NCBI GenBank assembly: GCA_025059775.1
Contig: JANXCW010000011.1
Location: forward strand, 1 to 64,000
Direction: 5' to 3'
Length of the DNA stretch: 64,000 nucleotides
Origin: Armatimonadota bacterium
GTDB taxonomy: Bacteria; Sysuimicrobiota; Sysuimicrobiia; Sysuimicrobiales; Sysuimicrobiaceae
Numbering within the stretch: position 1 is the first letter of the stretch; every line of letters starts with the position of its first letter. The notes under the pieces were generated by a model. The model was not told the DNA's origin. It ran no database searches and saw only the letters and a list, made by a program, of their open reading frames with translations. This document shows, piece after piece, positions 3,262 through 50,030 of this stretch. The translations under genes and the position numbers were made by a program.

Positions 3262-3864
3262 ATGGTCAAGACCTTTCCGATCCGAAATATCCGATGGCAC
3301 GGGCGGGGCGGATTCGGGGCCAAGACCGCGGCCCTGCTCCTGGCGGAGGCGGTGATCGAGGCCGGAGGGTACGCCCAGGCCTCCCCGGAGTTCGGACCGG
3401 AGCGCCGGGGTGCTCCGGTCCAGGCCTACACCCGTGTCAGCCCGTACCCCATCCGCCGTCGGGGACCCATAGAGGAGCCAGACGTGGTGGTGGTGTTGGA
3501 TCACCGGCTTCTTGCGGTGCCTGATGTGCTGCGGGGGATCCGGCCAAGCACGTGGGTGGTGGTCAACGCTCCCCGACCTGTGCGGGCACCGGGTGTGCCC
3601 GTGGACCAGGTGGTGACCGTGGACGCCTCAGGAATCGCTCAGCGTGTTTTGGGACGGGATCTGCCCAACATCGCCGTGCTGGCCGTGGTAGCGGTGGAGT
3701 TGGTCGGCCTTCCCGCGGAGGCGTTCTGCCGGTGGCTCAGGGAGCGGCTGCGTCGGGAGTTCCCGGAGGAGGTGACCCAGGCCAACGTGCAGGTCGCCCG
3801 GGAGGCCATGGAGGAGGGAAGGAAGTGGCGAATCGCTGGCAGGTCCTTGACCGCGGCCCTGTGA
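3262..3864 (+). CDS. porG: 2-oxoacid:ferredoxin oxidoreductase gamma subunit
   Basis: The 200-residue product matches the gamma subunit of four-subunit pyruvate/2-oxoacid:ferredoxin oxidoreductases, which decarboxylate a 2-oxoacid to acyl-CoA and pass electrons to ferredoxin. The family hallmark near the N-terminus is IRWHGRGGFGAKTAALLLAE, followed by the GAPVQAYTRVS region. Length fits the family (about 180-200). The ATG at 3262 was chosen because it places the motif about a dozen residues in, as in relatives. It is the first gene of porG-porD-porA-porB and overlaps porD by 40 bases. Whether the substrate is pyruvate, 2-oxoisovalerate or 2-oxoglutarate cannot be told. Confidence 0.88.
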   Translation: MVKTFPIRNIRWHGRGGFGAKTAALLLAEAVIEAGGYAQASPEFGPERRGAPVQAYTRVSPYPIRRRGPIEEPDVVVVLDHRLLAVPDVLRGIRPSTWVVVNAPRPVRAPGVPVDQVVTVDASGIAQRVLGRDLPNIAVLAVVAVELVGLPAEAFCRWLRERLRREFPEEVTQANVQVAREAMEEGRKWRIAGRSLTAAL

Positions 3865-44654: not shown

Positions 44655-45641
44655 CTAACGGTTCCGGTCCGCGGCCACTTCATAGTGGATGTTCTTGGCC
44701 TCGAAGAAGTTCACGATCTCGGGCACGTCCACCTCCGTGGCCATCCAGGGAGCCGGATTGGGCGTATGGAAGTGCGCGCCCAGTCCCAGCTCCTCCAGCC
44801 GTCGGTCCGTGACGTACTCCACGTAACCGTTCAACACTTCCGCGCTCACCCCGAGGAGGGGCTGAGGAAGCAGGGTGCGGTGATAGGCCCGCTCCAGCTC
44901 CACCGCCTGCAGGATCAGGGCTTTAAGCTCCCGACCGAGCTGTGGGGTCAGGAGATCCGGATCCTGGCCGAGGAGCTCGGTGATGAGGTGGATGCCGAAG
45001 CTCAGGTGCAGGCTCTCGTCCTTCAGGGTCCAGTCCACGATGGTAGCGAGCCCCCGCAGGAGGTTGCGGCGGCGGAAGGTATAGGCGAACAGGAACCCGC
45101 CGTAGAAGAACACGCCCTCCAGGATCACGTAGTAGCCTACCAGGTTGCGCAGGAACCGTCGGCGGTCTTCGACCCGGGCCATGTCCAGAGGCTCCAGCAT
45201 GGGTCGGGCAAGCTCCGTGAGGAACACCTCCTTGGCCTGGACCGAGGGCTCATCCCGGTGCAGTCGGAACACCCTTTCGCGGTCCACGGGCAGGGTCTTC
45301 AGCACGTACTCGAAGGCCATGGTGTGGTTGGCCTCCTCCCAGATCTGGCGGGCGAGGTACAGCCGCACCTCCGGAGCGGTCACGTGCCGGTAGATGGAGA
45401 GCGCCAGGTTGTGGGTCACCAGGGACTCCATGGGGTTGAAGAACCCCAACAGGACCTCCACGGCCCGCTTCTCCTCCCCGCTCAGACGCAGCTCCCAGTC
45501 CCGGACGTCGTCCGCAAGCGGCACCTCTTCCGGGAACCAGGTGTTACGCTTGCCCTGCTGGGCGTGGGCGTAGGCCCAGGGGTAGCGGAGGGGGAAGAGC
45601 TGGATGGGCTCGAGGGGATCGCCTCCCAGTAAACGCCGCAT
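44655..45641 (-). CDS. nrdB: Ribonucleotide reductase class I, R2 (beta) subunit with Phe in place of the radical Tyr (class Ic type)
   Basis: This 328-residue ferritin-like metallo-oxidase subunit supplies the oxidant for NrdA. Dimetal ligands read E72 (NPMESL), E103 and H106 (EEANHTMAF), E175 (LEGVFFYGGF), and E209 and H212 (KDESLHLSF). The position of the radical tyrosine (E-x2-H-x3-Y in class Ia) is F110. The first ligand is Glu rather than Asp. Both substitutions are the class Ic (Chlamydia-type, Mn/Fe) pattern. The second ATG, at 45641, is chosen because AGGAGGTG lies just before it. It follows nrdA by 15 bases and ends in the canonical-like FEAKNIHYEV region. Confidence 0.92.
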   Translation of the reverse strand: MRRLLGGDPLEPIQLFPLRYPWAYAHAQQGKRNTWFPEEVPLADDVRDWELRLSGEEKRAVEVLLGFFNPMESLVTHNLALSIYRHVTAPEVRLYLARQIWEEANHTMAFEYVLKTLPVDRERVFRLHRDEPSVQAKEVFLTELARPMLEPLDMARVEDRRRFLRNLVGYYVILEGVFFYGGFLFAYTFRRRNLLRGLATIVDWTLKDESLHLSFGIHLITELLGQDPDLLTPQLGRELKALILQAVELERAYHRTLLPQPLLGVSAEVLNGYVEYVTDRRLEELGLGAHFHTPNPAPWMATEVDVPEIVNFFEAKNIHYEVAADRNR

Positions 45642-45656
45642 GGGGCACCTCCTCAT

Positions 45657-47999
45657 CTAGGAACTGCAGGAGTCGCAGTGCACCTCACAGGTGGCGGCCT
45701 CCGCGGGCACCTCCAGGTTCCACTGGAGCCTGCGGCGGGCCTTGTTCACGGGGACGGTGCTGGGTTCCGCGAACATACGGGGGGCCATGAACAGGTAGTA
45801 GGTGCTCTTGAGCCCTGCCCTCCACGCCTCCAGGTAGACCCGCTCCAGGGTCTCGAGACGTCGATCCTGGAGGTACAGGTTGCGGGAGATCCCCTGATCC
45901 ACCCATTTCTGGGCCACCGCCGCCACCCGGATGTACGCCTCGGGGGGGATCCGGTAGGCGGTGCGGTGCACTTCCCGAATGGCCTGCGGGATCTCCGCGA
46001 TCTCCTCCAGGTCCCCCCGTGCCTCAAGGATGCGCGTCCGCACCCGATCCCAGAGCCCCAGCTCCTGCAGCTGTTCGACGAGCACCCGGTTGAACTCCAG
46101 GAACTTGCCCGAGAGGGTAGAGCGGGCGAAGACGTTGGCGTAGTAGGGATCAATACCGGGGGTAGTGCCTGCCAGCAGGCTGATGGTGGCGGTGGGTGCG
46201 AGGGCCATCACGGTGCCGTTGCGCATCCCGCGCCGCACCCGTTCCCGGAGCCGCTCCCAGTCCAGCCGGGCCGACCGGTCCACCCGGACCTCCCCCCGGA
46301 GCCGCGCGAGCTCCTCGAGGGTGTCCAGGGGCACCTGACCTCGGGCCCAGCGGCTCTCCGCGAAGGAAGGGAAGGGGCCCCGCTCCTGGGCCAGCTCGCA
46401 GCTGGCCGCGATGGCCTCGTAGCTGATGCGCTCCACCACCGCATCCGTGAAGGCCACCGCAGCCTCCTCCCCGTAGCGCATGCCCAGGCGCGCGAAGGCC
46501 TCCGCGAGTCCCATGAGTCCTAGGCCCACGGGGCGGTGGCGGAGGTTCCCTGCCCGGGCTCTCTCGGTGGGGTAGAAGTTCAGGTCGATGACGTTGTCCA
46601 ATCCCCGCATGGCAAGCCGCACCGTGCGCGCGAGCTTGCCCTCGTCTACCCCGTTCCGGGTGAGGTGGCGGGCGAGGTTGATGCTGGCGAGGTTGCACAC
46701 CGCCATCTCCTCCGGGGAGGTGGGGAGATGCACTTCGGTACACAGGTTGCTGGAGTGGATCACCCCGGCCAGCATGCTGCGGGCGTTGCTGGCGTCCTTG
46801 AAGGCGATCCAGGGGTGCGCGGTTTCCTGCAGGGCCGCGAGGATCTCCCGGAAGAGCCCCCGGGCGCTCTCCACCCGCCAGGCCCGCTCGGGGAGCCGTC
46901 CGCTCTGCGCGTCCGCGATCCTGCGGCGGTAGGCCTCCCGGAAGGCCTCGCCCCATCGCTCCGAGAGTTCCGGGGTGTAGAGGGGATCGAAGAGGTACCA
47001 CGGCTCGTCCCGCTCCACCCGCTCCAGGAACTCGTCGGGGATCCACAGGGCGGTGTTGAGGCTGGGCGCCCGCAGATACGGGTCTCCCGCGTTGCGCTTG
47101 AGGTCCAGGAAGGAGCGGATCTCCAGGTGCCAGGGCTCCAGGTAGACCGCCAGGGTCCCGCGGCGCCTTCCGCCCTGGTTGATGGCCTTGATGAGGGCGT
47201 CGAAGAGGTGCACGAAGGGCACGATCCCAGAACTGGTGCCGTTGATGCCCCGCACGGGGGAGCCCACGGCCCGCAGCTTCGTCACGGAGGTGCCGATCCC
47301 GCCCGCGTACTTCGCGATCCGCCCGAACTCCACGCAGGACTGCAGGATGTGGTCCATGCCGTCGAAGACGTCCGACACGTAGCAGCTGCTGAGCTGGTGG
47401 TGGGGAGTTCCCGCGTTGAAGAGGGTGGGGGTACTGGGGAGGTAGTCGAGCCGGCTCATGGCCTCGTAGAAGCGCAGGGCCCACGCTTCAGGCTGGGCTT
47501 CCAGGAGGCTCAGGCCCATGGCGACCCGCAGGAACAGGTACTGCGGGAGCTCGAGGACCGCCCGGGTGTCCGGATCCCGAACCAGGTACCGGTCCGCGAG
47601 GGTATACAGGCCCACCAGGGGCAGGAGTTCGTCCCGCTCCGGGCAGAGGGCCGCAGCGAGCCGCCCGAGATCCAGCCGCAGCAGCCGCGCATCCAGGACC
47701 CCGATCTTCACCCCACGCCGAACGTAGGAGACAAATCCGGCCCTGTAGGTCTGCGGATCGGGCTCCGGGGTTTTGAGCACCTCCCGATACAGGAGCCGCA
47801 GGAAGAGACGACGGCCGAGCCGCTCGTAGGCGGGGTCCTCATGTACCCGGGCCTGCGCGGCTACCAGGGCCGTCTGTTCCCACCCCGCGGCACCGGTGCC
47901 CCGGAGGGCAGGGTCCTGTAGAAGACCCTCGAGGAGACGCTGGGCTCGGGGAAGGCCGTGGGTGACCTGTCCGAGCTGGGAGAGGATGGCAGCGCGCAT
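45657..47999 (-). CDS. nrdA: Ribonucleotide reductase class I, R1 (alpha) subunit
   Basis: The 780-residue catalytic subunit reduces ribonucleoside diphosphates. Active-site elements are SSCYVSDV and MAVCNLASINL (the redox Cys pair), NLCTEVHLP (N-x-C-x-E with the thiyl Cys and Glu), KSTYYLFMAP (radical-transfer Tyr pair) and a C-terminal CEVHCDSC tail for re-reduction. The N-terminus lacks an evident ATP-cone, so overall dATP inhibition may be missing. The ATG at 47999 follows GGAGGTG. It sits behind a cobalamin riboswitch, a consensus promoter and two NrdR boxes. Confidence 0.95.
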   Translation of the reverse strand: MRAAILSQLGQVTHGLPRAQRLLEGLLQDPALRGTGAAGWEQTALVAAQARVHEDPAYERLGRRLFLRLLYREVLKTPEPDPQTYRAGFVSYVRRGVKIGVLDARLLRLDLGRLAAALCPERDELLPLVGLYTLADRYLVRDPDTRAVLELPQYLFLRVAMGLSLLEAQPEAWALRFYEAMSRLDYLPSTPTLFNAGTPHHQLSSCYVSDVFDGMDHILQSCVEFGRIAKYAGGIGTSVTKLRAVGSPVRGINGTSSGIVPFVHLFDALIKAINQGGRRRGTLAVYLEPWHLEIRSFLDLKRNAGDPYLRAPSLNTALWIPDEFLERVERDEPWYLFDPLYTPELSERWGEAFREAYRRRIADAQSGRLPERAWRVESARGLFREILAALQETAHPWIAFKDASNARSMLAGVIHSSNLCTEVHLPTSPEEMAVCNLASINLARHLTRNGVDEGKLARTVRLAMRGLDNVIDLNFYPTERARAGNLRHRPVGLGLMGLAEAFARLGMRYGEEAAVAFTDAVVERISYEAIAASCELAQERGPFPSFAESRWARGQVPLDTLEELARLRGEVRVDRSARLDWERLRERVRRGMRNGTVMALAPTATISLLAGTTPGIDPYYANVFARSTLSGKFLEFNRVLVEQLQELGLWDRVRTRILEARGDLEEIAEIPQAIREVHRTAYRIPPEAYIRVAAVAQKWVDQGISRNLYLQDRRLETLERVYLEAWRAGLKSTYYLFMAPRMFAEPSTVPVNKARRRLQWNLEVPAEAATCEVHCDSCSS

Positions 48000-48022
48000 C
48001 GGACACCTCCGTCCGAACCGGT

Positions 48023-48115
48023 GTGGGAATCCGCGGCGCCGCCGGAACGGACGAAGACACCCCGCTCGCGCAACTCCCGCTTCGCCCCACTCCACGAGGG
48101 CACCGCGGATTCCAC
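48023..48115 (-). promoter_or_regulatory. Long stem between cobalamin riboswitch and nrdA, likely expression platform
   Basis: On the minus strand the segment at 48115-48099 (GTGGAATCCGCGGTGCC) is complementary to 48040-48023 (GGCGCCGCGGATTCCCAC). The stem is about 17 bp with one bulge and G-U pairing, around a loop near 58 bases. It begins at the 3' edge of the riboswitch and ends about 12 bases before the nrdA ribosome site, an arrangement suited to ligand-dependent translation control. No T-tract is present. Confidence 0.5.
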
Positions 48116-48268
48116 CTGCCGGCAGGTCTTCGGACTCGGGTTCCTCTGGGGAGGGCACCTTCCCAGGCCACAGGCCCAGTGGCTCGTCCGCCCTATCCAT
48201 CCCCCTCACCGCGGCGGGCCCGTCCCGGACTCGCACCCCCAAGGGCGCTGCACCGGCGTTCCCTTTTA
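48116..48268 (-). promoter_or_regulatory. Cobalamin (adenosylcobalamin) riboswitch
   Basis: The minus strand shows the class's conserved blocks in order: AAAGGGAACGCCGGTG, GTGCGAGTCCGGGACGGGCC with CGCCGCGGTGAG, GAGCCACTGG, CTGGGAAGG and the B12-box GAGTCCGAAGACCTGCC. It lies in the nrdAB 5' leader. B12 binding should shut off this B12-independent reductase, as known for Streptomyces nrdAB. That implies a B12-dependent class II enzyme elsewhere in the genome. Confidence 0.92.
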
Positions 48269-48289
48269 ACCCCCGAAGGGGACCGGCAG

Positions 48290-48305
48290 GCTCTATATTT
48301 TGTAT
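48290..48305. promoter_or_regulatory. NrdR box, proximal
   Basis: The core CTATATTTTG (48293-48302) matches 9 of 10 positions of the NrdR core CwATATATwG. Its centre is 32 bp, three helical turns, from the second box, the usual spacing for NrdR pairs. It lies around the predicted transcription start, so NrdR binding would block initiation. Confidence 0.72.
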
Positions 48306-48314
48306 TCGAACAGA

Positions 48315-48343
48315 ACATTAGTGCCTACATATAGCGGTGTCAA
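48315..48343 (-). promoter_or_regulatory. Promoter of nrdAB (sigma70 type)
   Basis: On the minus strand TTGACA (48343-48338) and TAATGT (48320-48315) are separated by exactly 17 bases. This is the best housekeeping-type promoter seen in the window. Transcription would start near 48308, about 40 bases before the riboswitch. Confidence 0.8.
48322..48337. promoter_or_regulatory. NrdR box, distal
   Basis: The core CTACATATAG (48325-48334) matches 9 of 10 positions of the NrdR consensus core. It fills the spacer between the -35 and -10 of the nrd promoter. Together with the proximal box it forms a standard NrdR operator pair. Confidence 0.72.
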
Positions 48344-48410: not shown

Positions 48411-50030
48411 GTGACGAGGGTTCAGCGACTCAGCGTAAGCGCCCTGGGTGTGGCGGTGCTGGTGGCGGTTCTGGGCGCGATCCTGCTGGAGGTCCCCAGG
48501 TCCTGCACGGGCTGGCCTCTTTGCGGGGGGCGGGTGCTGCCGCCTGCCGGGGGGTTGGAGCTGGTGGAGTGGATTCACCGGCTTCTGGCCGCCCACCTTG
48601 TCCTGCTCGGGCTCATCCTGTGGTGGGTCACCCGGAGGGAATCCCGCGTGCTCCAAGGCCTCTTCTTTGCAACCTTCCTGGTGGTCCTCGTGGAGGCGGG
48701 AGTAGGTGCCCGGATCGCGCTGGGGGGGAGTTCGGGGTCCTGGAGTACGGTGCATCGCGTCCTGGGCATGGGTGCCGTATTCCTGCTCGGGGTTGCCTGC
48801 GTGGCCGCGTTCGCGTCGTCCCCATCGGGGTGGGACCCCAGGAGTGGCGGGCCCGTGGCCGTCCTGGGGCTGGGAGTTCTGGGACTCGCGGCGGGGGTGG
48901 ACAGCAGGGTAGTGGGGGTGTGTGCGATCCTCATCGGGCTCGCCCTGCGCGGGAGGTTCGCCGGTTCCGCGGTGGGATTGTTGGGAAGCGGTGTGGCCGC
49001 TCTGGGAGCGGGGCTTGTGGGAGCCCATGCGTTGGGAATGCCGGGATTGCGGACGGCGGCGGTGGGCGCGGTGGCCAGCATCGGCGTGGTGGGGGCCCTG
49101 GGGGTGGCCGCGGGGATGAGCGGGTTCGGTCTGGGGACTTCTGCGCGCCGGGAGGGCACCGGGGAGGTTCGGGCGTATCTCGAACTCAGCAAACCCCGGA
49201 TCGTGGTGCTGTTGCTCGTGACCACGGCCTGTGCCACGTTCGCGGCCGCGGGGAGGGATCTGCCGTGGGAGGTGCTGTTGGCCACGGTGGTGGGAGGGGC
49301 GCTTAGTGCCGCGGGTGCGAACGCCCTCAACCAGGTCCTGGACCGGGACGTGGACGCGGTGATGGACCGTACGAGGCACCGCCCCCTCGTGACCGGGCGG
49401 GTGGACGTTCCGAACGCACTGGCATTCGGCGTGTTGCTGGGGCTTGCGTCCTTCGGGGTGCTGGCGGTCTCCGTGAACCTCCTGGCGGCCACGTTGGCCG
49501 CCCTCGGCTACCTCTTCTACGTGCTGGTGTACTCCGTGTGGCTGAAGCGCAGCACGGACCAGAACATCGTGATCGGGGGCGCGGCGGGGGCCCTTCCGCC
49601 CCTCGTGGGGTGGGCCGCGGTGACGGATCGGGTGGACCTCCTCGCGCTGGGGATGTTCCTGGTGGTGTTCCTGTGGACGCCGCCCCACTTCTGGGCCCTG
49701 GCCTTGGTGCGGAGGGAGGACTACGCCCGGGCGGGGATCCCCATGCTGCCCGTGGTACGGGGGGAGGCCCGGACCCGGCGGGAGATCCTCGTATATACCG
49801 CGCTCCTGGTGGCCGCCACCCTGGGGATGGCGGGTCTGGGCGCCACGGGACCGCTGTACGGAGCCTCCGCGTCCCTGCTGGGCTTGCTCCTGCTGCGCGG
49901 TGCGTGGCGGCTGTATCGGCAGAGAACCCCGCAGGCCGCCTGGTCCCTGTTCAGGTTCAGCAACGCCTACTTGGCTCTGCTGTTCACGGCCCTGGTGGTG
50001 GACCGGATCCTTTTCCCGAACGTCGGTTAG
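48411..50030 (+). CDS. Fusion of a CtaA-like (heme A synthase) domain and CtaB/CyoE heme O synthase
   Basis: The product has 539 residues. Residues 1-240 form about seven hydrophobic helices of a CtaA/Cox15-like domain, with SCTGWPLCGG, VEWIHRLLAAH and STVHRVLGM. These are the Cys and His motifs of the N-terminal half. The second half of the CtaA domain has lost the equivalent HxxH/HR pattern. From about residue 250 it is CtaB: YLELSKPRIVVLLLVTT, NALNQVLDRDVDAVMDRTRHRPL (NxxxDxxxD farnesyl-diphosphate site) and WTPPHFWALALVRREDYA. It makes heme O and probably heme A for terminal oxidases. A similar CtaA-CtaB fusion is known in Thermus. The GTG start is 6 bases after GATAAT. Confidence 0.85.
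   Translation: MTRVQRLSVSALGVAVLVAVLGAILLEVPRSCTGWPLCGGRVLPPAGGLELVEWIHRLLAAHLVLLGLILWWVTRRESRVLQGLFFATFLVVLVEAGVGARIALGGSSGSWSTVHRVLGMGAVFLLGVACVAAFASSPSGWDPRSGGPVAVLGLGVLGLAAGVDSRVVGVCAILIGLALRGRFAGSAVGLLGSGVAALGAGLVGAHALGMPGLRTAAVGAVASIGVVGALGVAAGMSGFGLGTSARREGTGEVRAYLELSKPRIVVLLLVTTACATFAAAGRDLPWEVLLATVVGGALSAAGANALNQVLDRDVDAVMDRTRHRPLVTGRVDVPNALAFGVLLGLASFGVLAVSVNLLAATLAALGYLFYVLVYSVWLKRSTDQNIVIGGAAGALPPLVGWAAVTDRVDLLALGMFLVVFLWTPPHFWALALVRREDYARAGIPMLPVVRGEARTRREILVYTALLVAATLGMAGLGATGPLYGASASLLGLLLLRGAWRLYRQRTPQAAWSLFRFSNAYLALLFTALVVDRILFPNVG

Follow-up and report, generated by a model that had tools for sequence, protein, structure and literature searches.

The question raised by this locus is why the genes for a class I ribonucleotide reductase should be placed behind a cobalamin riboswitch. 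In the window, the whole stretch of 64,000 nucleotides that was analysed, the Rfam cobalamin riboswitch model RF00174 was matched by cmscan over its full length (model positions 1-189 of 189; 99.6 bits, E 1.1e-23, gathering score 31.5 bits) at 48302-48104 of the minus strand, immediately 5' of nrdA and with nrdB next. This is the higher-scoring of the two cobalamin riboswitch matches in the 2.35-Mb genome, and it bears out the preliminary description, which had proposed a class I reductase behind such an element. The interval assigned there, 48023-48268, does contain riboswitch sequence and takes in the expression platform, but its boundaries are shifted, so that the aptamer (48104..48302, minus strand) lacks its first 34 nt there, including the 5' strand of P1 (48289-48282, pairing with 48123-48116). 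A chance match was ruled out by the E value of 1e-23 and by the conservation of the element before nrdA in relatives. We infer from its sequence that the aptamer would sense adenosylcobalamin and alter expression. A perfect 14-nt palindrome, ACCTGCCGGCAGGT (window 48127-48114), spans the B12 box and the 3' strand of P1, and pairing of two transcripts through it is conceivable.

Both downstream genes encode class I subunits according to Pfam and NCBIfam. The large subunit, encoded by nrdA (45657..47999, minus strand), is 780 aa long (TIGR02506, 652 bits; PF02867 and PF00317), and no ATP-cone was detected in it. The small-subunit gene nrdB (44655..45656, minus strand; PF00268; start ATG 45656 or 45641) begins right after nrdA, and the closest solved relative of its product is the class Ic R2 of Chlamydia trachomatis (PDB 1syy, E 7e-85). 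When aligned to this protein, to which it is related by sequence only, NrdB has a Phe (F115) at the position of the radical Tyr and a Glu (E77) as the first metal ligand, as in the chlamydial subunit. By this residue signature NrdB is class Ic. Thus, the likeness to Streptomyces nrdAB put forward earlier holds for the riboswitch layout, but not for the enzyme, which is class Ic by sequence here and class Ia in Streptomyces. The link between riboswitch and nrdA is not exclusive to class Ic, since among the relatives fetched cobalamin riboswitches were found before nrdA in operons with a Phe-type R2 (23 rows) and with a Tyr-type R2 (8 rows), one genome being counted twice.

Upstream of the aptamer, a putative nrdAB promoter was recognised from sequence, with a -35 element TTGACA (48338..48343, minus strand), kept in the related genomes G036, G037, G003 and G027, and a -10 element TAATGT (48315..48320, minus strand) at a distance of 17 bp. 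The NrdR boxes mentioned in the preliminary description are present on the same strand: box 1 (48322..48337; core CTATATGTAG at 48334-48325) lies between the -35 and -10 elements, and box 2 (48290..48305; core CAAAATATAG at 48302-48293), 32 bp from box 1, overlaps the 5' end of the aptamer match. The double-box pattern CWANATNTWG-N22-CWANATNTWG, derived from nrdA promoters in the window and in related genomes, has just two mismatch-free occurrences genome-wide, namely at the nrdAB promoter (48334-48293) and a short way upstream of nrdR-nrdJ1 (C2:199847-199888). It is the latter place that provides independent support, because the pattern came partly from the window itself. No further place was found in the genome at one or two mismatches, and genome-wide three-mismatch matches were no commoner than those of the reversed control. 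The genome encodes NrdR (TIGR00244, 193 bits), and its paired boxes at the reductase promoters are about three helix turns apart, the spacing bound by the NrdR tetramer of S. coelicolor (PMC9110341). The intergenic region that holds the nrdAB promoter is common to a divergent gene (48411-50030, plus strand) that by eye resembles a fusion of CtaA (heme A synthase) and CtaB (heme O synthase).

Straight 3' of the aptamer, a hairpin GCCC-UCGUGGAGUG-GGGC extended by UCCGC/GCGGA (48075..48109, minus strand; inner stem 48101-48098 x 48087-48084) is nearly invariant in four genomes and was taken as P13. Its loop L13 (GUGG) is by eye complementary to CCGC in L5 (about 48217-48213), 4 nt each, and an L5-L13 kissing loop is predicted from this complementarity. 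A kissing loop formed via the GGUGCAAAUCC loop was rejected, as sequence variation of this loop in Thermomicrobium is not accompanied by compensating changes in L13. The stem of about 17 bp described earlier at 48023-48115 also exists, in the form of 16 bp with one bulge (48114-48099 x 48040-48024; 48024..48114, minus strand), and at -35.7 kcal/mol its pairing was stronger than that in any of 1000 dinucleotide shuffles; of the relatives, G036 and G037 also gave a significant stem and G003 did not. Because their 5' strands overlap, P13 and this alternative stem are mutually exclusive. Enclosed by the alternative stem is an anti-Shine-Dalgarno segment, GUCUUCGUCCG (48048..48058, minus strand), complementary to 48015-48005, the Shine-Dalgarno segment CGGACGGAGGU (48005..48015, minus strand) with GGAGG at 48010-48006, 6 nt before the ATG at 47999.

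The pairing between leader and Shine-Dalgarno segment was significant in per-sequence shuffles for G003 (p<0.001), borderline for G037 (0.035) and G036 (0.09), and not significant for the window (0.30), these p-values not being independent, as the four genomes are related. When P13 or the alternative stem was enforced in constrained folds, the unpaired fraction of the Shine-Dalgarno segment was 0.39 vs 0.82 in the window and 0.05 vs 0.46, 0.00 vs 0.14 and 0.00 vs 0.91 in the other leaders, so that in every leader the ribosome site is more closed with P13 than with the alternative stem. The four leaders were also aligned with MAFFT, but the alignment slips out of register from P13 to the Shine-Dalgarno segment and was therefore not used to count pairs; support comes from the per-sequence shuffles and the constrained folds. 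These data suggest a mechanism in which, with ligand bound, P1 and the L5-L13 kissing loop would hold P13, leaving the anti-Shine-Dalgarno segment to pair with its target and turn translation off, whereas in the absence of ligand the 5' strand of P13 would pair with 48040-48024, trapping the anti-Shine-Dalgarno segment in the stem and leaving the ribosome site freer, the ON state. The alternative stem, earlier regarded as the probable expression platform, would thus be one half of it, and according to the folds it is probably not the repressing structure but an anti-sequestering ON-state pairing, through which the ribosome site stays open in the absence of B12.

On these models control at the translational level is likely, falling short of shown because the cost of opening the region from Shine-Dalgarno to start in the window differs by only 1 kcal/mol between P13 and the alternative stem. 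The riboswitch and its role could be unchanged and control be transcriptional, the long GC-rich leader leading to early termination (e.g., Rho-dependent) and the Shine-Dalgarno pairing being incidental. Indeed, the G027 leader carries an intrinsic terminator at the corresponding place, so platforms differ among relatives; most functional riboswitches in one survey of B. subtilis were transcriptional (PMC9600662), and in P. acnes (Propionibacterium acnes) much of the transcription of nrdAB stops ahead of the first gene (PMC3848588). Nevertheless, no U-tract follows any stem of the window leader, on which ground intrinsic termination at the 17-bp stem was rejected, and the pairing near the Shine-Dalgarno segment is conserved in relatives, making transcriptional control possible but somewhat unlikely.

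As predicted in the preliminary description, class II reductases are encoded elsewhere in the genome, where two NrdJ proteins scored 535.8 and 523.9 bits, over the curated cut-off of the model (399.95 bits). The solved structure nearest to each is the Thermotoga maritima B12-dependent reductase (1xje), and alignment with it revealed that the three active-site cysteines, in the CFVV, NPC, and CNLGS motifs, are retained in both. The gene nrdJ1 lies directly downstream of nrdR in an nrdR-nrdJ operon; at the second nrdJ (L005 1207-3669; G000:C2 near 70.3-72.7 kb) neither NrdR boxes nor a riboswitch were found. As for the B12 uptake or synthesis genes asked for earlier, a putative uptake gene was identified: the second cobalamin riboswitch precedes a gene for a BtuB-like TonB-dependent receptor, which scores below the equivalog cut-off, together with a TonB gene, and a PduO-type adenosyltransferase is present. 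Since the adenosyltransferase is encoded and CobS and CbiC, two marker families, were not found in this 99%-complete draft, B12 is probably imported, not synthesised, and then adenosylated.

The model that we hold with high confidence is the following. With ample adenosylcobalamin, the riboswitch would repress nrdAB, dNTPs being available from the two class II reductases; a shortage of B12 would bring on the class Ic-type NrdAB as a back-up. As a second layer, NrdR, encoded with nrdJ1, would repress both nrdAB and nrdR-nrdJ1 from the paired boxes over their promoters. The aptamer, the genes, the class II enzymes, the NrdR boxes, and the existence of competing pairings were computed, and we infer ligand binding, the direction of control, its translational level, and the back-up role.

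Class I ribonucleotide reductases require oxygen, and NrdAB could instead be the main enzyme under oxygen, with class II serving low-oxygen growth and the riboswitch only trimming NrdAB. The description of members of Sysuimicrobiota, the probable phylum, as facultative anaerobes (PMC11604079) agrees with this proposal. However, out of 43 genomes of the order, 38 matched the NrdJ model (32 over the cut-off) and only 5 carried close nrdAB relatives. Because most genomes have NrdJ and no close nrdAB, class II is the standing enzyme of the order, and a main role for NrdAB is quite unlikely; the back-up role remains the preferred reading.

In all five genomes with close nrdAB relatives the riboswitch precedes nrdA. 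In the NrdA tree, the window's clade comprises Bacillota MAGs and Thermomicrobium, and the riboswitch was found in 11 of 11 distinct clade members with readable upstream DNA, one (L016) being cut off. That the aptamer is a decayed remnant with switching lost, as the unformed outer P1 pairs of the model might indicate, is highly improbable given the full-length 99.6-bit match, the 8-bp P1, the near-consensus B12 box, and the retention of aptamer and P13 between genera. Across relatives the platform may be Shine-Dalgarno sequestration in most, and one clade member has a riboswitch with an intrinsic terminator instead. We tentatively propose, at less than even confidence, that the class Ic reductase and its riboswitch may have moved together between thermophile lineages as a back-up cassette for B12 shortage, the aptamer being kept and the platform changed. 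Riboswitch labels on the tree are incomplete outside the window's clade, because later scans added cases before nrdA in scattered Proteobacteria and Actinomycetota, one planctomycete, and one acidobacterium. In Aeromicrobium (L028 2614-2764, L030 2692-2840, minus strand), the riboswitch before nrdA and a second cobalamin riboswitch lie back to back.

Another genome of the window's family, G038, contains a class I reductase behind a short cobalamin riboswitch (L131 = G038:C22:107500-113000, minus strand; 34 bits, at 3640-3740), with NrdR-like boxes just 5' of it. This reductase is only distantly related: its R2 is 26% identical and of the Tyr type (motif HANAY), and the R2 gene precedes that for R1. 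The different, short riboswitch in front of it may point to repeated recruitment. A SAM riboswitch (L131 4006-4112, plus strand) lies near the cobalamin riboswitch and is divergent from it.

The two-layer nrdAB/nrdRJ architecture is already published for S. coelicolor and P. acnes; what is new is a class Ic-type case in an uncultured lineage. In S. coelicolor, which also has an nrdRJ operon, nrdABS is under a B12 riboswitch (Borovok et al., 2006, as cited in PMC4991794), and the nrdAB and nrdRJ promoters carry NrdR boxes (PMC9110341). As far as these cited accounts go, the likeness extends to the cobalamin riboswitch ahead of a class I operon, the NrdR boxes of both operons, and a class II enzyme encoded with nrdR, whereas the streptomycete has a class Ia enzyme and B12 synthesis, in contrast with the class Ic signature, the pair of nrdJ genes, and the probable import of B12 found here in a different lineage. 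P. acnes similarly has a cobalamin riboswitch and an NrdR box before nrdAB and paired boxes at nrdRJ, but differs in expressing B12 synthesis genes and in having nrdDG, an anaerobic third reductase that is likewise under a cobalamin riboswitch (PMC3848588). Within a partial coverage of the literature, no paper was found describing the riboswitch and NrdR architecture of nrdAB for class Ic.

The HRbin32 leader is identical to that of G037, and the Centralia_MAG_233 leader to that of G027, so each pair appears to be one and the same genome. HRBIN32 has been placed in phylum CSP1-3, with 44 GTDB genomes (PMC11974145), now named Sysuimicrobiota (PMC11604079), and this is therefore the most likely phylum of the window. 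The findings extend the two-layer control of DNA-precursor synthesis known from Streptomyces to this HRbin32-related lineage and to a class Ic enzyme, a type working without a tyrosyl radical, and they predict that these bacteria rely on imported B12 and hedge against losing it.
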